Source: Candidatus Methanohalarchaeum thermophilum | GTDB taxonomy: Archaea > Halobacteriota > Methanonatronarchaeia > Methanonatronarchaeales > Methanonatronarchaeaceae | Assembly: GCA_001914405.1 (NCBI GenBank) | Contig: MSDW01000001.1 | Span: 1,178,001 to 1,242,000 of the forward strand | Direction of reading: 5' to 3' | Length of the DNA stretch: 64,000 bases | Shown here: one piece after another, positions 13,683-52,608 of the stretch | Numbering within the stretch: position 1 is the stretch's first letter | How the letters are laid out: every line of letters begins with the position of its first letter | Notes under the pieces: model-generated | Databases searched by the model: none | Seen by the model: the letters and a program-made list of their open reading frames with translations, nothing else | What the model was told of the DNA's origin: nothing | Program-made: the position numbers and the translations under genes

Positions 13683-15862
13683 AGGTAAACTGGATACAAC
13701 TCAAGAACATAAGAAGCTACGATGAAGAAAGAGTACAGTTCCCAAATGGCCCTGTTTTACTCTCCGGAGATGTTGGACACGGCAAGTCTTCCCTATTGAT
13801 GGGTTTAGAGTTTGCGTTATTCGGTCTAAGAGGAAAACAATTAACCAGTGAAGATCTTCTAAGAGAAGGAGAGAAAAGAGCAGAAGTTAAAGCAAATTTT
13901 TCAGTAAACGACAAAAACTATACAATAAAAAGAGGATTGAAGAGAGGAAATAAGAGAATAAGCCAAGTAACTGGATACATAAAAACCGAAGGAACTAAGA
14001 AAGAACTCTCTCCTAGGGATTTAAAAAGAGAAATATTTAAGATTCTAGGATACCCAATGGAGATGGTCGCAAAAAGAAAATCTTTGATCTACAGATACAC
14101 CGTGTATACGCCGCAGGAAGAAATGAAAGAAATTGTCAAAGCTGATGCAGATGACAGATTAAACACGCTTAGAAAAGTAATCGGAATCAACAAATACAAG
14201 AGAATCAGAGAAAACATATCAGAAATTAAAAATACATTAAGAGATCCCAAGAAAAAACTATCAGGCATATATAACGACCTAGAACAAAAAAAGGAAAACA
14301 AACAGGAACTCGAAAACGAAGTAAAAAACCTAAAAAATAAACTAAAAAACCTAAGAGAAAAAAGAGATAACAAAAATAAAAAACTCGATGAATGGAAAGA
14401 GAAAAAAGAAGAAATCGAAGAAAAAATCGAAGCATTTCACAAGCTTGACAAACAAAAAAATAACCTAAAAAACGAAATCAAAAACAAAGAAAATAAAATC
14501 AAGGAATTAGAGAAAAAAGAAAAAACCCTAAAAAAAGAAGTCGATGAATTTAAAAAACTCGACCGCCCAACCTCCAAAAAACTAGATGAAATAAAAGAAA
14601 AAATCAAAGAACTCGAAGAAAAGAAAGAAAACTACCTAAAATCAAAAAAAGACATATCAGAAAAAATAAATAACCTATTAAGAAATAAAAAAGAACTCGA
14701 AGAAGAAATAAAAGATATTAAAAAAGAAATTGACGAAAAAATAGCAGAAAAAAAGACAATAAGAAAAAACCTAAATGACCTAAAAGAAGCACAATCAGAA
14801 TGCCCCGTATGTGGCCACACACTCACCAAACAACACAGAAAAAACGAGATAAAACAAAAGAAAAAACAAATCAAAAACCTCCAAAAAGACCAAAAACAAC
14901 TAAAAAACAAAAAAGAAAACAAAAACACCCAAAAACAAGAAATTCAAACCAAAATAAAAGAAAAACAACAAAAAGCAATAAAAGAAACCAAAAAACAAAT
15001 AAAAACACTAAAAAAAGAAAAAGAAAACCTAAGAAAATACAAAGAAAAGAAAAAAACAGCCCAAGACAAAAAAGAAAAAATCAAAGAAAACAAACAAAAA
15101 ACAAAAAACCTAAAAAAAGAAAAACAAAAAGTAACCAAAAAACTACAAGAAACAAAAGAAAAACTCCAAGAACTAAAAGATATAAAAGAAAAACAAGAAA
15201 AAATCAACAAAAAACTAGAAAAAACCAGAGAAGAACTAAAAAACATAGAAAAAGACATAAGCTCCAAAAAAAGCGAACACAAAACAAAAACAAAAACCCT
15301 AAAAAAACACAAAAAAGAAATAAAAGAAAAAGAAAAAGCCAAATCCCTAGAAAAAGAAATCAACAAAAAAGAAGAATGGCTCAAAAACCTAGGAACACTA
15401 TCATCCACCATAGAAAGCCAATTCATGCTAAAACTACAAAAACAATTCAATTCAATATTCAACAACTGGTTCAACACACTAGTAGAAGAAGACGAACTCG
15501 ATGTTAGAGTAAACGAAAAATTCACCCCCATCATCGAAAGAAGAGGAGAAGACACAAAATACAGAAAACTATCAGGAGGAGAAAGAACATCAGTAGCCCT
15601 CGCATACAGACTAGCCCTAAACAGCGTAATAAACTCACTAATAGAAGACATAAACACACAAAACTTCATCATCCTAGACGAACCAACAGACGGATTCAGC
15701 ACCGAACAACTAGACAAAATAAGAGACATAATAAACCAACTAAAAATGAACCAAATAATAATAGTCTCCCACGAACCAAAAATCGAAAGCTACGTAGACA
15801 ACGTAATCAACATCTACAAACAAAACGGAACCTCAACCACAAAACAACAAAAAAACCTCTAA
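13679..15862 (+). CDS. rad50: Rad50 ATPase with zinc hook
   Basis: Rad50 is the SMC-like ATPase partner of Mre11. The 727-residue protein has a Walker A GDVGHGKSS (about 30-38), a Q-loop region near 140, a zinc hook CPVCG (C375, C378) flanked by two coiled-coil arms, the ABC signature LSGGERTS (near 631), Walker B FIILDEPTDG and the H-loop VSHEP. Each arm is only about 180-200 residues, shorter than in many archaeal Rad50 proteins of 850-900 residues. The coiled-coil DNA from about 14280 to 15400 is extremely A-rich, almost all Lys, Glu, Gln and Asn codons, and shifts from mixed to AC-rich codon choice. It is the last gene of the repair operon. Confidence 0.93.
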   Translation: MKVNWIQLKNIRSYDEERVQFPNGPVLLSGDVGHGKSSLLMGLEFALFGLRGKQLTSEDLLREGEKRAEVKANFSVNDKNYTIKRGLKRGNKRISQVTGYIKTEGTKKELSPRDLKREIFKILGYPMEMVAKRKSLIYRYTVYTPQEEMKEIVKADADDRLNTLRKVIGINKYKRIRENISEIKNTLRDPKKKLSGIYNDLEQKKENKQELENEVKNLKNKLKNLREKRDNKNKKLDEWKEKKEEIEEKIEAFHKLDKQKNNLKNEIKNKENKIKELEKKEKTLKKEVDEFKKLDRPTSKKLDEIKEKIKELEEKKENYLKSKKDISEKINNLLRNKKELEEEIKDIKKEIDEKIAEKKTIRKNLNDLKEAQSECPVCGHTLTKQHRKNEIKQKKKQIKNLQKDQKQLKNKKENKNTQKQEIQTKIKEKQQKAIKETKKQIKTLKKEKENLRKYKEKKKTAQDKKEKIKENKQKTKNLKKEKQKVTKKLQETKEKLQELKDIKEKQEKINKKLEKTREELKNIEKDISSKKSEHKTKTKTLKKHKKEIKEKEKAKSLEKEINKKEEWLKNLGTLSSTIESQFMLKLQKQFNSIFNNWFNTLVEEDELDVRVNEKFTPIIERRGEDTKYRKLSGGERTSVALAYRLALNSVINSLIEDINTQNFIILDEPTDGFSTEQLDKIRDIINQLKMNQIIIVSHEPKIESYVDNVINIYKQNGTSTTKQQKNL

Positions 15863-31111: not shown

Positions 31112-32161
31112 GTGGATATTGGTGATCTTGCTGAGAGTATTAAAGAGAGGTTGGGTGTTGATAGGGAGGTTGTTGATGATGAGGAAGAGGCTTCTATTAG
31201 GTCTTCGAAGGTTGTTAGGGGTGATTTGTGTGATGCTAGGGAGTTGAGGGATCGTTTGGTTGATGAGTATTGTGGTTGTGATTTGGAGGAGGTTTTTGGT
31301 TGTAGTTTGGTTGAGAATGGTTATGGGGAGTTTTTTCATAAGGAGGAGGTGGTTGATAGTTGTTTGTGTTGTCCTAGTTGTAGTGTGGAGGATGTTTTGT
31401 GTGATTTGAAGTTGGTTTATGGTATTGGTGTGTCTAGGGAACGTGAGTTGAAGGAGGAGGGTTATGAGTCGATACGGGAGTTGATTGATCATGATAGGTG
31501 GGGTGGAAGAGCTAGGGAGACTTTGGAGAAGTTTGATTCTGGTGGTTTGGATAGTGGTTTGGATGTTATTTCTAGGTGGAAGTCTTCTTCTGATCCGTTG
31601 TTTTTGAAGTATTCTGGGTTTTATGATGTGGGGGATTTTGGTATTTTGGATATTGAGACGATGGGGTTAGGGGCTCAGCCTGTAATCTTAATTGGTTTGG
31701 GTTTGCCGATGGATGGGTGTATTGAGTTTCATCAGTTTCTTCTTAAGGATTTTGATCAGGAGTTAGCAGCTTTGAAGTCTTTTTATGATAAGATTAGGGA
31801 TAGGAAAGCGGTTTTAACTTTTAATGGTAAGAGCTTTGATGTTCCGTTTCTTGAGAGGAGGTTTAGTTTTTATGGCGAAGATTGGTCATTGGATCAATCT
31901 CATTTTGATTTGTATCATTTTTCTAAGAGAGCTTTTGGAGATGAATTACCGAATTATAAATTAAATACAATTGAACGAGAGGTTTTGGGAATTGAGAGGG
32001 ATATAGATGTACCGAGTTCTATGGTTCCAGAGTTCTATAAGACTTATAGAGAAGAAGATAATCCAGGGCCACTAATTCCTATTCTTAGACACAATAAACA
32101 AGATATATTAACTCTGAATAGTTTGTTAAGTGAATTAAAAGAGGAATTAGTTGATGAATAA
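31112..32161 (+). CDS. mrfB: MrfB/YprB-like DEDD exonuclease with helix-hairpin-helix
   Basis: This 349-residue protein belongs to the YprB (RNase H-like) exonuclease family. GTG 31112 is chosen because GAGGTGG lies four bases upstream. Residues 1-85 are acidic and Cys-rich (CLCCPSCS). A helix-hairpin-helix-like segment follows (VYGIGVSRERELKEEGYESI, near 103-122). The nuclease core has FGILDIETMGLG (DxE, near 170), LTFNGKSFDVPFLERRF (near 235-251), FDLYHFSKR and the late HNKQDILTLNSLL, giving the DEDD set. In Bacillus, MrfB acts with the MrfA helicase in mitomycin-damage excision. Here the helicase gene overlaps it by eight bases, so the pair is almost certainly a unit. Confidence 0.82.
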   Translation: MDIGDLAESIKERLGVDREVVDDEEEASIRSSKVVRGDLCDARELRDRLVDEYCGCDLEEVFGCSLVENGYGEFFHKEEVVDSCLCCPSCSVEDVLCDLKLVYGIGVSRERELKEEGYESIRELIDHDRWGGRARETLEKFDSGGLDSGLDVISRWKSSSDPLFLKYSGFYDVGDFGILDIETMGLGAQPVILIGLGLPMDGCIEFHQFLLKDFDQELAALKSFYDKIRDRKAVLTFNGKSFDVPFLERRFSFYGEDWSLDQSHFDLYHFSKRAFGDELPNYKLNTIEREVLGIERDIDVPSSMVPEFYKTYREEDNPGPLIPILRHNKQDILTLNSLLSELKEELVDE

Positions 32162-36383: not shown

Positions 36384-36797
36384 TTTAACCTATTAACCAA
36401 GAAGTCACCTTCCTGAATCTTTGATTTAGGTGGGTGATGAATTGGGGTTGTTTTATGTAGTAGAGAAACAAAATATTCTATTGCTTAGAGAGGTTCCAGG
36501 TCTATATGTCGAGTTTGAACGGCCGAGTGTTTGGGCAATAGGCTCTTCCGCAATGGATACGTGGGAAGACTTGGAACGGGGTTCAAGTGACCGAACCCTA
36601 AACCCGGGCAGAAAATAGTGATGGATATAGGTGATGAGTCCTGAAAATAAGTGTAAGCCTTGGGAACCTGCAAGGAATGGCGAACCGTGTTCGCCTTGGA
36701 AGACTATCGTGCAACAAGGCACTAATCTCGGATGCCGGTCTTGTGAATGGATAGAAGCACCTTCCAAAATCTTGATTTTAGTAGGTGAGGAGGTCAC
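36384..36797 (+). mobile_element. Non-coding PATE-like element, A family copy 1
   Basis: This element of about 414 bp has IS605-like ends. The left end is AAGAAGTCACCTTCC with a TGAATC-TTT-GATTTAGG hairpin. The right end is GAAGCACCTTCC with AAAATC-TT-GATTTT, ending GGAGGTCAC. The interior has no credible gene but several hairpins, for example GGGTTC-AAGTGACC-GAACCC near 36571-36590, and a RUGAUGA/CUGA-like pair close together near 36630-36643. A nearly identical copy lies inverted at 52194-52608. Both copies also share the 14 bases outside the left hairpin (TTAACCTATTAACC), so these may belong to the element. Confidence 0.75.
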
Positions 36798-39182: not shown

Positions 39183-41714
39183 TTAGATTTGGAAAATATC
39201 TTTTTTCTCTAAATCAAACTGAACTCCTGTTTGTTCATCATAGAAACCAGATTCAGCATCCAAACAGATAATTCCATTACACTCTACTGTACCTATATTT
39301 TGATCTGATTCAACACCTACCTTTGATTTAAAATCAACTAATTCTTGTTTGGAATTAACCTTTAAAGTCACAACTTGCCTATTAAAATCCTTTTTAATCT
39401 TAGAAAACTCTTTTTTTCTTTCTAAATAATCTTCAAAAGACCCAATACCCCTACTAAAGATATCAATATATCTCTCCCACAAATTCCTACTTTTGGTATC
39501 ATCTAAAACAAAAATTGATACCTCAGGAAGATTATCTTCGATTAATTTGAAGTGATTTTCAATAGTCCTATAATTTAAATTTTTAATTTCTTGATTTAAA
39601 TCTATTTCATTTCCCGAAGTGGTTGTTTTAACTCCTTGAGCCTTATCATCAACAACTTCTCCAAAATAATTAGGCAAATATTCCTCAACAAGCTCTCTCT
39701 CACTAAACTCGTTTTTCTTTTTCAAAAATTTCCGAGTCTTCTCCAATAATATCTCACCATAGATGTATTTACTAAAAGGATAATCATTATTTTCTTTATC
39801 GACTAAATTGAGGATATGAATTTCTGAAAAATCTTTTTCGTTGTTCCTATTAGTTCTACCGGCTGTTTGAACTAGATTATCTAAAGGAGCTAAATCTCTG
39901 TAAATTTTGTCCACAGATATATCTACACCAGCCTCTATTAACTGTGTAGTAATTAAAATAAATTTTTTATTATTTCCTATGTAGTCTTTAGCTTTTTTTA
40001 TTCTCTCTAATCGCTCACCAGGAGGTATATTAGTTGACAAATAGATAATTTCGAAACCATTAAAGTCATTTTTTTTATTAAATTTAGAAAAAAGCTTTTT
40101 GGTGCTGTCAATAGTGTTTAATACAACCATTAAGTTATCAAAACCACTATCGTGGTTTATTAAATCATAAAGTTCTTCTAGATTTGTTTTTTCGTTTATC
40201 AAGTTTGTCTTTACCTTATACCTATTGAAGAATTTGTTTATCTTTTTATTTGAAAGAGATGAATAATCTCTTGGAGAAAATAGTTTTGTAGAATCTAATC
40301 TTTTTTCTTTTTGTTCATTAGTTGAATTCAATTTAGGTTGTGTAGCAGTTGCTAAAATGATATAAGAATCGAATTTTTCAGTCAAAATTTTAAAACAATC
40401 TCGAATTGGTGTGATTAAACTTGGGGGAATAGCTTGAATCTCATCTATTAAAATGATAGAGTTTGTTAACTTGTTATATTTTTTTAACAAATGGTTTTTG
40501 TTAGTAAAAATTGATTTAAAGACTTGAAAAAAAGTTGTAACAACAATATCAGAATACCAATTTTCAATTAAAAATGAACTCTTATCGTAACCAAGTTCTT
40601 CTCCGTCTTTATTAAATACCTCATTCGATAGGTGATGATGTTCTAATAATTTATTATTATCAATTTCATCATATCTGGTATTAAGAACATTTTTAAAAAC
40701 TTCATAGTTCTGTTCGATTATAGATATATATGGTAAAGCATAGATTATACTCGGTTCTTTGTTTTCACTTTCTTTTAAGTGGTTTCTTAATTTTAAAGCG
40801 TTGCCTAATAAAGTCAGTGTTTTCCCAGAGCCAGTTGGGGCATCAATTTCAAAAAATCTATCATTGGATTCTTTTAGAGCTGCTTCTAAATTTTCAGCGG
40901 TTTCTTGATATATCGCTTCTCTAACTTTGTTGAATTCATCTGTTTGATCAAATCCTTTCTTGTAAGATTCCAACATCTCTATTGGATAAGAATAATCTTC
41001 TTTTGTCTTTTCTACTTCGCTAGCGCTTTTTTTGTCAGATTCTAATAATATAGAATAAACTAGATTAAATAAATAAAAATAAAAAATATCATCATTAAAC
41101 TCGGTGAACCTAACTAAACCAGGAATAATAATCTCATTATCCTTTTTTTGGGCGGTTATTTTTCCCAGGTAATCTTTAAATTCTTCAAGGTAGTCAATAT
41201 CTTTAGTTTCTAATAACAGGTTATAGATTTTATTTACTCTAGGTTTATGTTTTTCAATATTTTCGTAGATTTTTCTAGTGTCCTTATAAGAACTCTCTTT
41301 AGAATCGGTTTCGTATTTAATTGTTTTTTCTAAATTTTCAAGATCACCATGATGATGCTTTATCGAATTAAAAACAACAGCATTCACAAAACCCCTCTCA
41401 ATTTCATCAAATTCAAATCTTTCGGCTAGGAATAATCCAAATAAAGAAGATATTAATCCATGTCTTTCGTATTTTTCTTCTGAAGAATTATTCCTAATTT
41501 TCTTTTGGAAGTAATCAGAAAATTTTCCGAAATCATGAGAAACAGAAACTATTTTTATCACTCTTTCAAGGTCTTCTTTTTTAGATATGTCCAAGTTATC
41601 AATTATCGAAAATGAATTGGATTTAACTTCTTCTAGATGATCTTTTAATTTTTTGTTCTCGTGAGATAAGAATCTAGAATAAGACAATTTGACTTCCTCT
41701 CGTAGTTTCACCAC
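39183..41714 (-). CDS. cas3: Cas3 HD nuclease-helicase (type I-B)
   Basis: Cas3 unwinds and degrades target DNA recruited by Cascade. This 843-residue protein has an N-terminal HD domain with SVSHDFGKF (H60-D61) and KHHHGDL, a Walker A DAPTGSGKT (near 290-300), a DExH-type box LIDEIQAIPP, motif III ATATQP, and motifs ITTQLIEAGVDIS and QTAGRTNR. The C-terminal 200 residues are charged and less conserved, as is usual. It overlaps cas5 by 41 bases, implying coupling. An internal start a few codons later is possible. It is the last gene of the leftward effector operon cas6-cas8b-cas7-cas5-cas3. Confidence 0.93.
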   Translation of the reverse strand: MVKLREEVKLSYSRFLSHENKKLKDHLEEVKSNSFSIIDNLDISKKEDLERVIKIVSVSHDFGKFSDYFQKKIRNNSSEEKYERHGLISSLFGLFLAERFEFDEIERGFVNAVVFNSIKHHHGDLENLEKTIKYETDSKESSYKDTRKIYENIEKHKPRVNKIYNLLLETKDIDYLEEFKDYLGKITAQKKDNEIIIPGLVRFTEFNDDIFYFYLFNLVYSILLESDKKSASEVEKTKEDYSYPIEMLESYKKGFDQTDEFNKVREAIYQETAENLEAALKESNDRFFEIDAPTGSGKTLTLLGNALKLRNHLKESENKEPSIIYALPYISIIEQNYEVFKNVLNTRYDEIDNNKLLEHHHLSNEVFNKDGEELGYDKSSFLIENWYSDIVVTTFFQVFKSIFTNKNHLLKKYNKLTNSIILIDEIQAIPPSLITPIRDCFKILTEKFDSYIILATATQPKLNSTNEQKEKRLDSTKLFSPRDYSSLSNKKINKFFNRYKVKTNLINEKTNLEELYDLINHDSGFDNLMVVLNTIDSTKKLFSKFNKKNDFNGFEIIYLSTNIPPGERLERIKKAKDYIGNNKKFILITTQLIEAGVDISVDKIYRDLAPLDNLVQTAGRTNRNNEKDFSEIHILNLVDKENNDYPFSKYIYGEILLEKTRKFLKKKNEFSERELVEEYLPNYFGEVVDDKAQGVKTTTSGNEIDLNQEIKNLNYRTIENHFKLIEDNLPEVSIFVLDDTKSRNLWERYIDIFSRGIGSFEDYLERKKEFSKIKKDFNRQVVTLKVNSKQELVDFKSKVGVESDQNIGTVECNGIICLDAESGFYDEQTGVQFDLEKKDIFQI

Positions 41715-42405
41715 TTAGATACTTCGAGTTATCTTTAATTTTTAATGGACTATCTTTAGAGATTGCTATCGATTTAAATTTTGGAGAAGACCTATCTTCT
41801 TCCATTTTAACAGGTAAGCGTTCATTATATATTTTTCCTTCTATCTCAGATCCATCAATTATCTCTGCAGGTGCAGCGGTTTCCGAATAACCGACTTCTT
41901 TTTCATTAAGCTCGGTTTTATAAAAATCACCAAAATTTGCAAACAAATTCACTTGACCCAAATATGGTGGAAAGACACACTTATTTTTCCTCAAAAAATC
42001 ACCTAATTCCCTTTTTATTTTTTTGTCTTTTAGGTATAGGTAAATTCTGTACTCTGGGTTCCTTATGAACTCTAATCTAGTGGGAGATAGCGCTCCTTTC
42101 CCACTGGGGTTTCTATAAGGATTTGATAGATCTTTTGTTTTTTTATCTAAGTTTTTTCCATGCATAAAGTTGTATCCATGCAGCTCTTTTCCACCAAAAC
42201 TTTTTAGATTAATTCCTGTTTTTATTTCATCAAAACCGAGTTCTTCTAAATATTCTTCTTTCCCATAGCCTAATATCGATCCGATTAGGCCAAACAAAGA
42301 TGTTTTTGGAGGAATTAAATAGGATTGCTGTTCTCTATTACACCAAGGCTTTGTATAAAGAGCATAATCCCCCCAAAGTCTAAAAGACAAGATTTCTTTT
42401 GACAT
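41674..42405 (-). CDS. cas5: Cas5 (type I-B Cascade subunit)
   Basis: Cas5 caps the 5' handle of the crRNA in Cascade. The 243-residue protein opens EILSFRLWGDYALYTKPWC, then SYLIPPKTSLFGLIGSILGY, the conserved Cas5 RAMP start and P-x-T-x-x-G-helix. A basic/Gly-rich central stretch (SNPYRNPSGKGALSPTRLEF) and FPPYLGQVNLFANF match I-B Cas5 (Cas5h). Its ATG is one base after the cas7 stop (TAG-T-ATG), and it overlaps cas3. No anomaly was seen. Confidence 0.88.
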   Translation of the reverse strand: MSKEILSFRLWGDYALYTKPWCNREQQSYLIPPKTSLFGLIGSILGYGKEEYLEELGFDEIKTGINLKSFGGKELHGYNFMHGKNLDKKTKDLSNPYRNPSGKGALSPTRLEFIRNPEYRIYLYLKDKKIKRELGDFLRKNKCVFPPYLGQVNLFANFGDFYKTELNEKEVGYSETAAPAEIIDGSEIEGKIYNERLPVKMEEDRSSPKFKSIAISKDSPLKIKDNSKYLSGETTRGSQIVLF

Positions 42406-42406
42406 A

Positions 42407-43369
42407 CTAGAAACCTAATTTTTCGATTCTTACTTCATTAACATCCTTTAGTTTATTGATAAACTCAAGTGTGTTTTCATAATCTTGGGTTTCATCGATT
42501 TTGTATTCGATTGAATCAAGCTTATCACTATTTTTGTTAACTGCCTCTACCAAGGGATTAAAGTCTAAGTCTTCTTCAATTTCACTGAATTCTCGATAAT
42601 CCTGTTCTTCATTTGAATCTACTTTAACCAATTTTTCGATATCACTCATTTTGGAAACGCCATCGCTGTAATTAATTTTTAACAATAATCTAGAGGTTTG
42701 ACCAGCTTTTGATCGAGTATTTATTAAATTAATTTTGTTCCATAGTGCTTCTAGCATTAAATAAATGTCTTTTTGCTTGGTTCCATTAATTTCTGCTGTT
42801 TTTGGATTAATGTATCCTATCGTTGAGAACAATGCATATGGAACTTGACTATTAGTTGCTATTGCTCCTTGTGTTTTTTCTTCTCCTGATTTCATAACAC
42901 TCGTGTTTTGGAGAGGATTTAGTTCAACTTTATTTATGCTTCTATTCATGTTCTTGAACTGAACCGTTCCCGTAAGATCAATATTATTACCTTCTTCTGC
43001 TAAAACACAACCAAACAATCGAATATCAATACATTTCTCTAATAAATCCGTAGAATCATCCTTGTCGACGATTTCGCTAAGACTCTCTCTTCTCTGGCCC
43101 ACTGTCTGAGTGTCACCTTTTGAAGAATAAAACACTATCTTAGACTTATTTTCAGTATCTGAGTCCTCATCACTTTCGTATTCATCTATATAGTCCCTAA
43201 TATATCTCTTTAATCTTACATCTGATACCATTGCTTTTTGAGTGTTTTCATCAAACCTAGGTTCTCCAGTGAAAGGATCGCCATTAGGATCACAGTCCTT
43301 AGCATCGTATAAAAACAATATCTCTGATCTATTCACTATATCCGTTTCTAGATTTTTCGTTTCATTCAT
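42407..43369 (-). CDS. cas7: Cas7/Csh2 Cascade backbone (type I-B)
   Basis: Cas7 polymerises along the crRNA as the Cascade backbone. ATG 43369 is chosen because AGGAGGG lies seven bases upstream. The longer frame from 43429 merely runs into cas8b. The 320-residue protein opens NRSEILFLYDAKDCDPNGDP, the Csh2 N-terminus, and has DVRLKRYIRDYI, a RRESLSEI region, FGCVLAEEGNNIDLTGTVQF and the basic NTRSKAGQTSRLLL. The start overlaps the cas8b stop by eight bases. Confidence 0.9.
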   Translation of the reverse strand: MNETKNLETDIVNRSEILFLYDAKDCDPNGDPFTGEPRFDENTQKAMVSDVRLKRYIRDYIDEYESDEDSDTENKSKIVFYSSKGDTQTVGQRRESLSEIVDKDDSTDLLEKCIDIRLFGCVLAEEGNNIDLTGTVQFKNMNRSINKVELNPLQNTSVMKSGEEKTQGAIATNSQVPYALFSTIGYINPKTAEINGTKQKDIYLMLEALWNKINLINTRSKAGQTSRLLLKINYSDGVSKMSDIEKLVKVDSNEEQDYREFSEIEEDLDFNPLVEAVNKNSDKLDSIEYKIDETQDYENTLEFINKLKDVNEVRIEKLGF

Positions 43370-45251
43370 TATTATTCCCTCCTGAGGAAGTATCCGGGTT
43401 AGTAAATTTGTCTGATAAAGAATAACCAATAAACATTCCGAAAATAAAATCGTTCTCTGAGAAATTTTCTTTTTCTAATAGTTCTCCAATATTATTGAAT
43501 AGTGAGGAAACTATGGGTTGATTTGATATCTCATGTATTGTTGCTTTTTCCTCAACTTCGTTTATAAATTTTCTTAAGCTATCTTTATCATTGATTCTTT
43601 TTCTAGCATATCCCAACATTCTTTTTTCATAATTATTTATTTCGTAGGATAGCCTTGCGATAGTAACTCCTAGGGGAATTCCCGTTCTGATTTCTGGTGT
43701 CTCTGCAAAGAATTTGTTTTCTGAAATAAAGTTCTCCATTTTTTCTAAACCGCTTTCTCCTTTGATTTCTTCATTAAATTTATTCATAACTATATCCGCT
43801 CCGTTTTCTTCAAAATTAATGGAAATTAAATTTGAGAAGAGATTACAATTTAACTTAGAAAGTAATTCTAAAAACCGAATATGGTTCTTAGTAAAATTAG
43901 AAGCATTAGAAGCTTCGTATTCATTAGGACCTTGGTTTCTAAGCTTGTAAGATATTTTATTAATAAATCTTTCCTGTAAGTGATCATAGTTTATTGGTGT
44001 ATCAAGAAGTATTTTTTCAAGCAAACCTATTCTTTGTTTTATTAATAAGTCATAGTCCTCGCTCCTATTTGAGCTAAATAGTTCAATTAAATAACCATTA
44101 AAACTAAAACCGGTTATTTCTTCATTTTTCTCAAGTAATTCTAATATACGATTTGGATAAATGTCTTTGATAAATTTAACAACTCTAATTCCATTATCAT
44201 ATACATAAAAAAATAAATCCACTCCAATTTTTTCTTGATTACCTAAGTTTGCTAAATCCATTAACAGATAATAACGGTCATTGAGCCTTTTTCTAAGTTC
44301 TTTTAGTTCTTCACTGGAGTAAATTTTAGAGAAGTTCTGATTTTTGAAAGATTCTAGTAATTTATCATAGTTCTTATTTTCATTAAAATTGAGTAGAGAG
44401 AAATATTTGACTCCAAGAATCTTTTTTTGTAGATAACTTTCTATAAATTTTTTTCCTTTATTAAAATCGCCAAAGCAATCGTCACAAATAATTAATTGTT
44501 TTTTTATGTTATCCTCGTTTAGTCCATAAAATCCAGTTTTTTGGTCAAAGGTAAATGAATAATAAAAAGTTGCTTTAGTTGGGGAAAATAAGTTTTCTTC
44601 TTTACCACAGAAAGAACAACTAGATAAATCATTATTTACAGAAATGGAAGTTTCAGAAGGTATAAATTTTTTAAAAACTTCTAGTGTTTCTTTAATCTCT
44701 CCAAGGTAATAGTAATCCTTTTCCAGATTTACATTTAAATTGAATCTATCTATTATGTTGAATCCAATTTTGAAAACAAATATTAGGTCTCTTAAATCGC
44801 TCTTAGATAAATCAATTAAATGACTCTTCTTTTCCTCATAGATCTCTTCGATAAATTTTGATTCATCTTTTAAAACAAAAGAATAAAATTTTTCTAAATA
44901 TTCCTTTGTGGATTTTTTTAGGTCAAGATTTAGATAAAAATCTTTAGTATTGTTAAAATTTCTATGTATTTTTTCGTTTTCGATTTTATTGTTTTTGCCT
45001 ATTGCTGATCCTCCTAAAGTAAAATCATGTGGGTAATAATGACGGTTTTTACCACTATTAATTGTTTTAGTGGGCTGGATATAGAATAGGTCTCTTTCTC
45101 CGGCTTCAACTAAATTAACATCGGATAAATAAAAATTATTGTTTTCATCGAGATTAAGTTCCATTTCTAATATTTTTTGGCTTTTTGATACATCTTGGCT
45201 AAAAGGAACAATTTCTGTGTTTCGTCCCAATTTAATTAGGTTACTAATCAT
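43362..45251 (-). CDS. cas8b: Cas8b/Csh1 large Cascade subunit
   Basis: Cas8b recognises the PAM and recruits Cas3. The 629-residue protein has a strand-rich N-terminus, then a zinc-binding pair CSFCGKE (near 212) and ICDDCFGDF (near 255), followed by FNKGKKFIESYLQKK. This arrangement is characteristic of Cas8b/Csh1. The second half is mostly helical and ends in the small-subunit-like NFSENDFIFGMFIGYSLSDKF. It starts 14 bases after cas6 and overlaps cas7. The subtype I-B call rests on cas8b with csh2-type cas7. Confidence 0.88.
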   Translation of the reverse strand: MISNLIKLGRNTEIVPFSQDVSKSQKILEMELNLDENNNFYLSDVNLVEAGERDLFYIQPTKTINSGKNRHYYPHDFTLGGSAIGKNNKIENEKIHRNFNNTKDFYLNLDLKKSTKEYLEKFYSFVLKDESKFIEEIYEEKKSHLIDLSKSDLRDLIFVFKIGFNIIDRFNLNVNLEKDYYYLGEIKETLEVFKKFIPSETSISVNNDLSSCSFCGKEENLFSPTKATFYYSFTFDQKTGFYGLNEDNIKKQLIICDDCFGDFNKGKKFIESYLQKKILGVKYFSLLNFNENKNYDKLLESFKNQNFSKIYSSEELKELRKRLNDRYYLLMDLANLGNQEKIGVDLFFYVYDNGIRVVKFIKDIYPNRILELLEKNEEITGFSFNGYLIELFSSNRSEDYDLLIKQRIGLLEKILLDTPINYDHLQERFINKISYKLRNQGPNEYEASNASNFTKNHIRFLELLSKLNCNLFSNLISINFEENGADIVMNKFNEEIKGESGLEKMENFISENKFFAETPEIRTGIPLGVTIARLSYEINNYEKRMLGYARKRINDKDSLRKFINEVEEKATIHEISNQPIVSSLFNNIGELLEKENFSENDFIFGMFIGYSLSDKFTNPDTSSGGNNNE

Positions 45252-45265
45252 ATTTTATCACTCTA

Positions 45266-46006
45266 TTAATTTGATATGGCTTTTAGGCATCCGAATCCTT
45301 GGTTGTTTCTTTCACCCAAACCAGTATAGTAAATAAATCGGTTTATTTGTTCAGTTGCGTTGATTTCGAATTTCATTTGTGTGCTCATCTGCCAAGTGTC
45401 CTTTATCTTTAATCTCTTTGGCTTAGAATCTATAAATCTAAAATCTAATTCATTTAGGTCTTTTTTAGGTTCTTTGTCATAGTAGTCTTTGTATCTGTTG
45501 ATTAGGTTTTGGAAGAGGTTGTCGTAAAATTTTTTGGAGTTTGGTCTTAGATCTATGGTTTTTAGTTCTCCATCACCGTTTTTTGTTTGTGTTCTGACTG
45601 CGATTGGTGTTATTGTTTCAAAAACCATTTTTTCTTCAAATTTTGGTTCTTCAAGGGATTGTATCGAATCTAATTTGAATTTAATATCTTTTTGTTTTTT
45701 TATTGTGAGTTCTGGGTTTTCTAGGAAGCCTTCTACAAAAGATTTAGTTAATTCCTTTTTTGGTGAGGAGAAATAGTAATTTGCTTTACTGTTTTTTGGG
45801 GTAATTCCATGTTTATCAGTTTTTTTAACATCCACATTAATCCAAGAAAGATTATATGGCTTATATTTTGGCTTCTCATGATATTTATATGCTAAATCTG
45901 GCGAAACCTCTCCAATCTTATTTAAAGAAGCACTCATTAATTCAAACAAATGATTATATGGTACCTTACTTATTTCCTCAAATCTTAAATTTGCTTTAAC
46001 CCTCAT
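45266..46006 (-). CDS. cas6: Cas6 pre-crRNA endoribonuclease
   Basis: Cas6 cuts the repeat to leave an 8-nt 5' handle. The 246-residue RAMP protein begins MRVKANLRFEEISKVPYNH and ends with the diagnostic Gly-rich loop GLGERNNQGFGCLKAI. A His-containing N-terminal helix (YNHLFELMSASLNKI) could supply the active site. It is the first effector gene after the array, with its start 82 bases beyond the terminal repeat on the same strand, so it may be transcribed with the array or from its own promoter between them. Confidence 0.9.
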   Translation of the reverse strand: MRVKANLRFEEISKVPYNHLFELMSASLNKIGEVSPDLAYKYHEKPKYKPYNLSWINVDVKKTDKHGITPKNSKANYYFSSPKKELTKSFVEGFLENPELTIKKQKDIKFKLDSIQSLEEPKFEEKMVFETITPIAVRTQTKNGDGELKTIDLRPNSKKFYDNLFQNLINRYKDYYDKEPKKDLNELDFRFIDSKPKRLKIKDTWQMSTQMKFEINATEQINRFIYYTGLGERNNQGFGCLKAISN

Positions 46007-46088: not shown

Positions 46089-47472
46089 ACCTCAATCCTA
46101 TTTTAGTCTGATTAAGACCTACGTAAGCTCTTTCTGTTATCACTTCTGTTGAATATTTCAATCCTATTTTAGTCTGATTAAGACAATACTCTTATATCTG
46201 TTTCATTATCTATGTGAACATATTTCAATCCTATTTTAGTCTGATTAAGACCCAACTGGTGACTACGGAGGCAGTATCCTAAGAGAATTTCAATCCTATT
46301 TTAGTCTGATTAAGACGGAGATCCGGCGACAGCTATATACCTTAGAGGGTAGTCATTTCAATCCTATTTTAGTCTGATTAAGACATGGGACGCAACAGGG
46401 AGAATATAAGGCAACTGCAAGTGAATTTCAATCCTATTTTAGTCTGATTAAGACCACTCACTAATCGGTCGTTGTTGTCGTAAGCTGTTTCATTTCAATC
46501 CTATTTTAGTCTGATTAAGACTTGGCAAGACCTCCATAACTACGACTTAATGTGTCTATTTCAATCCTATTTTAGTCTGATTAAGACGGCGGATGAATTG
46601 GACTCTAAACCACCTCATCTATTTCAAGAGTGAACTTATTTCAATCCTATTTTAGTCTGATTAAGACTAACAGGATCCTGAATTAACAGGGCCTCAGGTG
46701 TATATTTCAATCCTATTTTAGTCTGATTAAGACCGAAGAGAGAATGATTTACTTGATAGGTTGCAGGAAGATTTCAATCCTATTTTAGTCTGATTAAGAC
46801 CTCATGATACCCTAAATCATTTTTTTCTATGTACTCGATATTTCAATCCTATTTTAGTCTGATTAAGACAGTTAAGCATGTAGAGGGTTTTGACCGTTTG
46901 TTTTTATTTCAATCCTATTTTAGTCTGATTAAGACAAATTAGTAAATCTAACACCTCACCCAGTAAAGGTGTATTTCAATCCTATTTTAGTCTGATTAAG
47001 ACGGTAGATATAGTCTATTCGAGGCTATAGGGAATCAATATTTCAATCCTATTTTAGTCTGATTAAGACTTGAGTTGATGAGATCTAAGAACAAGATCAA
47101 GGAAGTTCGATTTCAATCCTATTTTAGTCTGATTAAGACATAAACCATTCTTCGCAAATTATCCCTAGATAAAACCATTTCAATCCTATTTTAGTCTGAT
47201 TAAGACTTATATTAAGAAATGCGTTATGGGCAACATCTATAAATTTCAATCCTATTTTAGTCTGATTAAGACACATCTAACTGATCAATCTGACTAAGAT
47301 CCCGTGATATTTCAATCCTATTTTAGTCTGATTAAGACATTGGTTTGGGGATGTTTTTGTTGAGTGGAGTAGGGCATTTCAATCCTATTTTAGTCTGATT
47401 AAGACCACACAAATCCCCTCGTAAAACAACTTTAATATCCGCATTTCAATCCTATTTTAGTCTGATTAAGAC
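46089..47472 (-). CRISPR. CRISPR array: 21 repeats, 20 spacers, transcribed leftward
   Basis: The repeat is 30 bp; on the + strand it begins ATTTCAATCCTATTTTAG and ends TCTGATTAAGAC. Read on the minus strand it ends GGATTGAAAT, giving the type I-B crRNA handle ATTGAAAT, so transcription and the leader come from the right. Repeat starts are 46089, 46155, 46222, 46287, 46355, 46425, 46492, 46558, 46638, 46704, 46771, 46840, 46906, 46973, 47040, 47110, 47177, 47243, 47309, 47376 and 47443. The leftmost copy is degenerate in its first bases (ACCTC for ATTTC), as expected at the old end. Spacers are 35-40 bp except one of 50 bp (46588-46637). The other repeats look identical, so the array is well kept. 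Confidence 0.97.
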
Positions 47473-47836
47473 AGGAGGGTTATATTGGTTTATTGTGTCT
47501 TTTTTTGTATTAAATTGTTGCATTTTGGGGTTGTTTTCTGGGATCCCCGATAATGAATCTCTTTTATATAGATGTACAATCTGGTTTTTGTGGTTTTTTG
47601 TTTTTGTGGGTTTTGTTTTGGATGTTTTTTTATGGTTGGTGTGTTTTTTGTTTTCGATTTTGTTTTTTTGGTGATTAGGTTGTTTTATTGTTGGTTTTGA
47701 GTGGTTTTTGGTTTTTGGTTTTGTTTGATCTTTTTGTTGATTTTGGTGGTGTACGAGTTGCTATACTGAATTTTTTTAAGAAATAGAGAGTTTTTGGTTT
47801 TTTATTTTATAAATTGGCGTTTTTTTGTGTGGATTT
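47473..47836 (-). promoter_or_regulatory. CRISPR leader region
   Basis: This stretch lies upstream of the first-transcribed repeat (47443-47472). It is GT-rich on the + strand, hence AC-rich on the transcribed strand, with GGATCCCC near 47539-47547 and a TATATAGA-like element near 47565. No gene is present. The leader is limited on its far side by the non-coding element at 47837. Its AC-rich composition also fits the 3' flank of cas2. Confidence 0.55.
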
Positions 47837-48230
47837 TCATAGTAGGGTAAGGTAGAAAACCCTACGGCTTTTTGTGAGGATGAATGTATTACCACTTAAA
47901 TAATAGTTTCTATATTTTTTGGAAGTTAAACTGTAGTTGGTTGGCTTTTGTCGGCCTTTTTTGAACAAAAAGCGATCTCGGGTCTTAGAGATATCTGGTT
48001 AAAGGTTCCAGATCCCTATATCGAAGGTGTATGATGCTAGCTAAAAAAGTAATTTCTTTGGTTAGAGAGGGTTCTAGTGGTTGGTGGAGGAGTATATCAA
48101 AACGAATATGAATAAGCGGTTGAATTGTATGTTAGTATATGGCTAGATCCTGTTCCAATTTCTCCTCTCGGAGCTTGAGTTCCATGTCGACTGGCTGCAT
48201 GCGAGAAGTCCATTGTATAAGCCGAGAATC
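47837..48230 (+). mobile_element. Non-coding element, B family copy 2, between cas2 and the array
   Basis: It opens with TTCATAGTAGGGTAAGGTAG and hairpin GTAGGGT...ACCCTAC, an opening shared with the copy at 51722-52182. It then has the family blocks AGTTGGTTGG, AACAAAAAGCGATCTC, TAGTGGTTGGTGGAGGAG, AAGCGGTTGAAT, GTTAGTATATGG and CTCTCGGAGC. No coding frame is credible. Its ends are less clear than those of copy 1. It separates the adaptation genes from the leader and array and could place a new transcript or terminator there. Confidence 0.55.
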
Positions 48231-48296
48231 TTTTTTTTTTTGGTTTGGGGTAGGGGTTCTATTGTAGGTTCCTTAGCTTCTATGGGGGTTGTTACT

Positions 48297-48560
48297 TCAA
48301 ATTATGTTGTCTGTTTTTTCTTTTTCTTGTCCGATTGTGGTTTTTTCTAGGGCTTTTTTGTTTCTGAGTTTATAGATTATTATTGAGTCGTGTGATTGGT
48401 TTATGATTTTTTTGATTCCTTGTTTGACTTCTTTTAGTTCACTTTTGGTTAGGTTTCCTTCGAATACACTGTTTTGTATCCAGTTGAGGTATTTTCGGAG
48501 GAATTTTTTTACTTTGTTTACTCTTTTTACTCCTACATCGTAGACTATTATGAAATACAA
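48297..48560 (-). CDS. cas2: Cas2 adaptation subunit
   Basis: Cas2 is the dimeric scaffold of the Cas1-Cas2 spacer integrase. The 87-residue protein opens YFIIVYDVGVKRVNKVKKFL, with the Cas2 first strand and Asp, and continues LNWIQNSVFEGNLTKSELK and DSIIIYKLRN. The start is TTG at 48560, supported by GGTGG upstream and by family alignment. The three-base gap to the restored cas1 stop at 48564 points to coupled translation. The C-terminal tail is Lys/Glu-rich. Confidence 0.9.
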   Translation of the reverse strand: MYFIIVYDVGVKRVNKVKKFLRKYLNWIQNSVFEGNLTKSELKEVKQGIKKIINQSHDSIIIYKLRNKKALEKTTIGQEKEKTDNII

Positions 48561-48563
48561 CTT

Positions 48564-49542
48564 TTACCACCATATCTGAAATGGTTCGTATTCTTGTTGT
48601 TCTAGTATATGTTTTACTATTTTATAGCACTCTAGTCTTATTAAACGTTGGTATGAGACATTTTTTTTGGATTTCTCGGTGTTTGATTGTTCTATTTAGT
48701 GTTTTCTCGTATCTTTTTTCGAATTTTTTTCTTCCTTCTTCATTTAGTAGGCATTTATTGAGATCGTCGTCGAAGTGTTTTTTGTCTAACATTCCTTTGT
48801 TAGTTAGGTAAAAGATTGTTCTATCTACTATTAGTGGTTTAAATACATCTGCTATATCTAATGCTAGGGAAAATCTTCTTTCTCTTGGTTCGTGGAGGTA
48901 AGATATTGTTGGATCTAGTTGGGAGTTGTATATTTCACTTATTGTAGTTGAATATAGTAGTGAGTTTCCAAAACTTAGCAGACAGTTGACCATGTTTTTA
49001 GGTGGTTGGCGGCTTCTAGAGGTATATTTAAACTTTTCTGGTAGTATTTCATCGAAGGATTTGTAGTAAGTGCTTCTGCATCTTCCTTCTATGTTCATAA
49101 CTTCTGTTACTTTTTGAGTATCTTTTAGTTCATTTTTGATATCTTCGATAACTTCTAGTTTTTTATTTTTATTGTATCTTTTTAGGTTGCTCTTGATGTT
49201 TTCGATACTTCCTTTTACGAATTTTTTAGCTAGTTCAAGTCTTTTTTCTTGTTTTAAGTAATGTTCAGCTTGGTTAACAGTTACTTTTCCTGATAGATAG
49301 GTTTCTTTAGGATAAAATGAGCCATCATAGTATCCGTAGTAATTAAAGAAGTGAATTGGGACTCCTTCTTTAGCTAATAAGTGGGTACACTGGGATGTAT
49401 ATGTCAGAGACCCGTATGAGTAAATAGAATAAATTTTTTCAATGGGGATCGGTTTTTGATCTCCATCTTCATTTATATGATAGACTGTGTTTTCTTTTCT
49501 TCTTAATTTTCCATCACTGTTTATATAGAAATTCCTTTTCAT
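48564..49542 (-). pseudogene. cas1: Cas1 integrase, frameshifted at an A8 run near its 3' end
   Basis: The first 293 codons are intact: MNIEGRCRSTYY carries the catalytic Glu (near 152), and LHEPRERRFSLALDIADVFKP carries the His and Asp ligands (near 217-232). After [11 protein letters not shown] the coding strand has eight A residues (48661-48668). As written the frame ends at 48622 with an unrelated tail ([12 protein letters not shown]). Removing one A restores the normal Cas1 ending, [20 protein letters not shown] and EYEPFQIWW, with TAA at 48564-48566, four bases before cas2. So the gene has lost its true C-terminus, or slippage or frameshifting restores it, or the base count is wrong. 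Confidence 0.8.
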
Positions 49543-49610: not shown

Positions 49611-50123
49611 TTAGCTAAAGCAGAATTCGCGGTATGCACATTTTTTGCAGATCTTTTTCCAGTTTGGACTAGGAAAAGTGTCCTTATTGAGAATTTCTCT
49701 TATTTCTTTGATTAGTGTTTTTATTTCTTTTTTGTCAGAGTCAGTTAATTTGATTTTTTCTTTTTCTTTTATTTTTGGATACTCTAAGATACCATGAGCT
49801 TTTATTCCTAATTGATCAAGGTAGTAAAGATAATATAATATTTGATACTTATGTGATTTTTTCATCTTTTTTGATTTTTTGACTTCATGAATCTCTAAAC
49901 ATTCTTTTCTTTTCACAAAATCAAATTTAATTGGACCTAAATTAACTTCTTTTTCTTCTCTATTGTAAGAACTTTGATGAGTTAATTTACCCAACTTAAC
50001 TAATTCAGATTCCTCTTCCATCTTGATATAATTAGAAAACAACCATAATTTAGTCTTGCAAATAAAGTAATAATTTACTTGCACACCTGTAATATCCAAA
50101 TTATCGACATATATCTCATTCAT
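49611..50123 (-). CDS. cas4: Cas4 adaptation nuclease
   Basis: Cas4 trims and orients new spacers. ATG 50123 is chosen because GGAAGGG lies just upstream and the product then opens MNEIYVDNLDITGVQVNYYF, the normal Cas4 start; the longer frame to 50207 adds unrelated sequence. The 170-residue protein has an N-terminal Cys (FICKTKLWLF), FDFVKRKECLEIHEVKKSKK with the D and E-x-K nuclease core, YQILYYLYYL, and the C-terminal ICKKCAYREFCF, which completes the Fe-S ligands. It is the first gene of the leftward cas4-cas1-cas2 set. Confidence 0.88.
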   Translation of the reverse strand: MNEIYVDNLDITGVQVNYYFICKTKLWLFSNYIKMEEESELVKLGKLTHQSSYNREEKEVNLGPIKFDFVKRKECLEIHEVKKSKKMKKSHKYQILYYLYYLDQLGIKAHGILEYPKIKEKEKIKLTDSDKKEIKTLIKEIREILNKDTFPSPNWKKICKKCAYREFCFS

Positions 50124-50776
50124 AGTACCCTTCCAGTAAAATTCACTAAGAAATAATACAAAATAAAACTTATCTATTAAAATAGAACCAGTAAACATAA
50201 TGATCAATCCCGAGACTATACATTTCTAAAGATTAAATAAATAAGTAAAAAAAAGAAATTTGATTCCTTTAATTAATTATACTATAATTATTTTTTTCAC
50301 CTTTGAATAGACTAGCCTTAAGAGATGTTAAAAAATATGTCTTTAATTGGTATTTATCTTACCTTATTTAGTTTTACTTAGATGTTTATTATTTTATTAA
50401 GTTTTATGTTTTAATTGAATATTAGTTTTTGTAGAAGTTAAGAATCTTTTATAGTTTTTTCTTGTTTTCATTTATTTTTATGTCATTAATTCTGGTTCTA
50501 GTTGGGTTTAAGACTTTGATTTTTAGGTTTATTTGAATTTAGATTTTTTTGTTTTTTGGTTTTTGATAAGTTGAGTATGTTGGTTTTTTGTTTAGTTTTT
50601 GTTGTCTGATTTTTGTTGTTTTTTGTTTTTTTGTTGTGGTTTTGTTGGGTAACTTTTAAGTGTTTGTTTATAGGATTATGTGGAGATATTATTAGGTTGA
50701 AAATGATGTTTAAGGTTGTATTGAGGAAGTTTTTTGGGTTGTTTTCTGTAAATTGGTTGTGTAGGGGTGTTAGTTT
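50124..50776. other. Gene-free spacer, AT-rich then GT-rich
   Basis: The DNA between divergent cas4 and the PiT transporter is AT-rich to about 50500 and then T/G-rich on the + strand up to the transporter start. No gene or repeat is supported. Promoters for both genes must lie here. Confidence 0.45.

Positions 50777-52193: not shown

Positions 52194-52608
<415 letters not shown>

Follow-up and report, generated by a model that had tools for sequence, protein, structure and literature searches.

CRISPR loss through deletion of a single A in a cas gene has been documented in experiments (PMC3784566). In the laboratory CRISPR escapers of Staphylococcus epidermidis, obtained under plasmid selection, the genes whose function was abolished by single-base indels were type III interference genes (PMC3784566). 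For the AT-rich genome of Buchnera, slippage on poly(A) has been reported to rescue frameshifts lying beside such tracts (as cited in PMC2831843). The closest relative of the gene considered here is the cas1 of archaeon SCG-AAA382B04 (PZKD01000091.1), which belongs to the same family-level lineage. It encodes a Cas1b of 325 aa in a frame that is open through EAFQIWW, cas2 lies directly downstream, and the repeat is near-identical to the one described below.

A window of 64,000 nucleotides from Candidatus Methanohalarchaeum thermophilum (contig MSDW01000001.1, positions 1,178,001 to 1,242,000) was analyzed; the source genome assembly comprises 2.14 Mb in four contigs. 'Candidatus Methanohalarchaeum thermophilum' HMET1 has been grown only as a mixed enrichment (PMC5852551). 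Two PylRS/tRNAPyl pairs have been described for it (PMC9071458), and two PylRS genes above the family cut-off were found in the source genome. The window harbors a type I-B set that is complete by content, i.e., cas6, cas8b, cas7, cas5, cas3, cas4, cas1 and cas2 plus an array (Table 1). As in archaeon SCG-AAA382B04, cas2 directly follows cas1, and cas1 contains the same run of eight A (A8), but its reading frame is broken by one base in the deposited sequence. Thus, the case resembles the S. epidermidis escapers in being a single-base indel in a cas gene, and differs from them in that an adaptation gene is affected and no selection is known.

Table 1. Features of the type I-B locus (positions in the window).
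Feature	Position	Strand	Evidence
cas3 (HD + helicase), intact	39183..41714	-	TIGR01587, TIGR01596
cas5	41674..42405	-	TIGR02593 above cut-off, TIGR02592 just below
cas7 (csh2)	42407..43429	-	TIGR02590
cas8-like large subunit (TM1802 family)	43362..45251	-	TIGR02556, below curated cut-off
cas6	45266..46006	-	TIGR01877
CRISPR array	46089..47472	-	30-nt repeats, identical save leader-distal end copy
Leader region, cas2-to-array	47473..48296	-	leader alignment
cas2, intact, TTG start	48297..48560	-	TIGR01573; 80% identical to relative
True Cas1 C-terminus, 32 aa + TAA, next frame	48564..48662	-	
cas1 (type I-B, Cas1b), frame-0 ORF	48622..49542	-	TIGR03641, 410.1 bits vs curated cut-off 304.1; 81% identical to relative
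Frameshift site, coding-strand CC+A8; one surplus base, C or A	48661..48670	-	
cas4, intact	49611..50207	-	TIGR00372

The genome contains 53 copies of the I-B repeat, distributed over three arrays (at 783 kb, in the window and at 1634 kb). The first ~110 nt of the leader after the last repeat are common to the window array and the third I-B array of the genome, and the first ~22 nt are common to all three. Since the leaders share this conserved start, the three arrays probably depend on a single adaptation module. The spacers of the window array, searched against phage records in order to date recent acquisition, gave no match. One spacer of this array (46588-46638) is ~51 nt long, while all others in the window measure 36-41 nt. 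In the third I-B array (C1:1634010-1635720), one spacer matches host positions 31156-31179 within the ORF 31112-32161 at 22 of 24 bases, a partial match that may be due to chance. The start codon of cas2 (48558-48560) is TTG, and the same codon is ATG in the relative. Outside the locus, a repeat of ~410 bp was observed at window positions 52200-52608 and 36384-36797 (96-98% identical, at least 5 copies in 902 kb of the genome); inverted ends were not found for it, and it had no Rfam match. An Rfam search of the window as a whole gave no hits.

The frame-0 translation of cas1, from the ATG at 49542 to the stop at 48622, comprises 306 aa. Residues 1-293 are normal and are followed by 13 unrelated residues up to the TAA stop. 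The frame changes at coding-strand CC (48670-48669) and the A8 that comes after it (48661-48668, T8 on the plus strand), which begins at nt 875 of 979 of cas1, i.e., ~90% along the gene, within its last tenth. The C-terminus, including EYEPFQIWW, is whole in the next frame, and its stop codon (48564-48566) is separated by three bases from the cas2 start at 48560. The Cas1b block VSYxRLIRLExYKLxKH...Y.PF..WW is absent from frame 0 and was found in the next frame only. Since this tail of 32 aa shares 81% identity with its in-frame counterpart in the relative's Cas1 and the C-terminal motif occurs in nearly all type I-B Cas1 homologues compared, the next-frame tail is not a chance reading. Thus, the single-base frameshift of cas1 is genuine in the deposited sequence, and the original prediction of a broken cas1 whose conserved ending persists in the next frame was confirmed.

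The break is derived in the source lineage, since the closest relative's cas1 is intact. Among 79 readable homologues, one was broken (~1.3%); this sole other broken cas1, that of the Clostridiales MAG GWE2_32_10 (L069 6286-7185), is interrupted after residue 57 by an in-frame stop. The next-frame tail showed 81% aa identity to the relative with a dN of 0.11, and the cas1 body and cas2 likewise each had a dN of 0.11. As judged from these divergences, selection acted on the Cas1 tail until very recently. Since the tail diverged exactly as the body did, the lesion is either very recent or an artefact, in agreement with the earlier expectation that any loss would be of recent date.

The lesion had been attributed to one extra A in the A8 tract. 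The comparison upheld a single surplus base at the CC+A8 junction; its identity as A was not established, because the relative carries an identical A8 in a cas1 that is intact. At this site, the relative reads GAC GTT AAA AAA AAT GTT TCT, with A8 in frame, and the window reads GAA ATC CAA AAA AAA TGT CTC, with an identical A8. When C is taken as surplus, the product is REIKKNVSY, a better match to the relative's RDVKKNVSY than the REIQKNVSY obtained when A is taken as surplus. The motif was readable in 70 homologues; at the site, 33 of them have G, 17 K, 10 N, 4 R and 1 Q. In 34 orthologue pairs, 504 AAA codons of the relative were aligned to the source genome, where 233 were AAA and 13 CAA; this codon evidence favours a surplus C by ~18:1. 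In near-identical repeats of the source genome, length changes were ~10-fold more frequent per run for runs of at least 6 bases than for dinucleotides, albeit with small counts, and this indel-proneness of A-runs favours a surplus A by ~10:1. Taken together, the two are near balance, with perhaps roughly 2:1 for C. The A8 itself is ancestral and harmless, since the relative's full-length cas1 has it in frame, and it is a by-product of conserved Lys-Lys-Asn codons (AAA AAA AAT in the relative). Thus, the A8 is not proven as the culprit, and the comparison illustrates that a homopolymer should not be blamed before a relative has been checked.

The preferred reading, to which we assign a probability of roughly 0.48, is a recent single-base insertion in cas1 of the type I-B adaptation operon that abolished I-B spacer acquisition. 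From the sequence, we infer both that the base is truly present in the cell and that function was lost. The main competing explanation is that cas1 is intact in the cell and that the draft carries one surplus base beside or within A8, which is a possibility to be taken seriously, if short of probable. Homopolymer junctions are typical sites of sequencing errors. Consistent with an error are also the constraint on the Cas1 tail, which equals that on the body, the intactness of cas2, cas4 and all effector genes, and the length variability of long runs noted above. A surplus C, however, would not sit in a long homopolymer, and A/T runs of eight wholly within ORFs of at least 200 aa are frequent (63 in 502 kb), which argues against an error at this one. 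The cas3 gene is intact despite its own in-frame A8.

In order to estimate how often clean frameshifts occur in the draft, 902 kb sampled from the source genome were set against the proteins encoded in 416 kb of one relative and 658 kb of another, yielding 242 conserved gene segments (198 kb). Among these, a clean frameshift in an otherwise intact, non-mobile gene was seen in cas1 alone; no second one was found in the remaining ~241 segments, which counts against an error and rules out poor draft quality in general. The other frame breaks fell in transposases (IS605, DDE type and a further transposase-like ORF), in an antisense shadow and in one 5'-truncated pseudogene. The last of these, a transglutaminase-like gene on the minus strand (C1:253868-254300; L122, about 13868-14300), has a one-base frameshift and lacks its 5' part, and owing to this truncation it was classed as a pseudogene. 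With zero clean frameshifts seen apart from cas1, the 95% bound is ~1.5 or fewer per 100 kb, so we judge the prior for an error in a 1-kb gene to be at most ~1.5%. In our judgement, this is of the same order as the prior for a true break (~1.3%). Since adaptation genes are dispensable, the balance tips slightly to a real, recent loss. Most likely, then, either the I-B Cas1 was recently lost or a sequencing slip occurred, with nearly equal weight for the two.

For a real, recent loss, the following course is proposed. Very recently, and perhaps in the culture that was sequenced, the cas1 gene of the cas4-cas1-cas2 operon would have gained one base at the CC+A8 junction. The last beta strand and the terminal helix of Cas1 would thereby be swapped for the 13 unrelated residues. 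According to the Cas1 alignment, the lost tail holds ~10 near-invariant positions, and in a confident model of the relative's Cas1 (mean pLDDT 91) the lost part corresponds to a short strand at residues 294-296 followed by the terminal helix at 297-312. E152, H217 and D229 (relative's numbering), the catalytic Glu, His and Asp of Cas1, are invariant in the alignment including the window Cas1 and are kept in the 306-aa product. This product should be inactive although the catalytic residues remain, since loss of the tail deprives it of both these structural elements and of the ~10 near-invariant residues. It would be expected to fold poorly or to assemble poorly with Cas2, so that the three I-B arrays should no longer gain spacers. 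I-B interference (cas6-cas8-cas7-cas5-cas3, all intact) would continue with the existing spacers.

A slippage-dependent Cas1 had also been considered in the original prediction. It is improbable that a fraction of the Cas1 is made at full length because RNA polymerase or the ribosome slips on A8. Such slippage agrees with the position of A8 exactly at the frame junction and with the rescue reported for Buchnera, in which the frameshift likewise lies beside poly(A) in an AT-rich genome. The present cas1 differs from the Buchnera cases, as far as these are cited in PMC2831843, in having no evidence of slippage and in that its tract is not conserved out of frame: in the sole close relative, tract length is equal and one open frame is present. 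A search for a stimulatory or regulatory RNA structure downstream of the frame junction found none (z = -0.14), and A8 runs are common and unremarkable in the source genome. On A runs, the usual ribosomal shift is -1. Restoration of the cas1 frame would need a +1 ribosomal shift, which speaks against slippage. A stricter version, in which full-length Cas1 is made solely via A8 slippage and spacer acquisition is thereby held low and stochastic, is a shade more improbable still.

Least probable of all, and hardly to be credited, is that cas1 is a phase-variable contingency gene switched by DNA slippage at A8: the tract has eight As and its switching would be reversible in principle, but it stems from conserved Lys-Lys-Asn codons, lies ~90% along the gene and not near the 5' end, and shares the locus with A-runs of at least 7 bases in most other cas genes. 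A bias toward the 5' ends of genes has been described for poly(A) tracts of 5-8 bases (PMC2831843). In the titles and abstracts searched, no report of a phase-variable or naturally frameshifted archaeal cas1 was found. Thus, the earlier suggestion of phase-variable or slippage-dependent expression gained no positive support, given the unconserved arrangement, the lack of RNA structure and the 3' position, and the case is ordinary either way, with nothing to suggest a novel form of regulation.

About 36 kb from the I-B locus, the genome encodes a complete type I-D CRISPR-Cas system (C1:1262590-1271978) with intact Cas1d, Cas2 and Cas4 and only two repeats (one spacer). Like the I-B Cas1, Cas1d (C1:1263098-1264099) is encoded next to Cas2 and Cas4; it differs from the I-B Cas1 in being intact, is only 28% identical to it, and is associated with a different repeat in a two-repeat array. 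If the surplus base is an error, the finding is relevant to annotation only. If the base is real, the main CRISPR system of this halophilic archaeon, with three arrays and about 50 repeats, would very recently have lost acquisition and kept interference. Even then, the cell has a further Cas1-Cas2-Cas4 set, the intact one of type I-D, and would provide a natural test case for whether the Cas1 of one system can serve the arrays of another.
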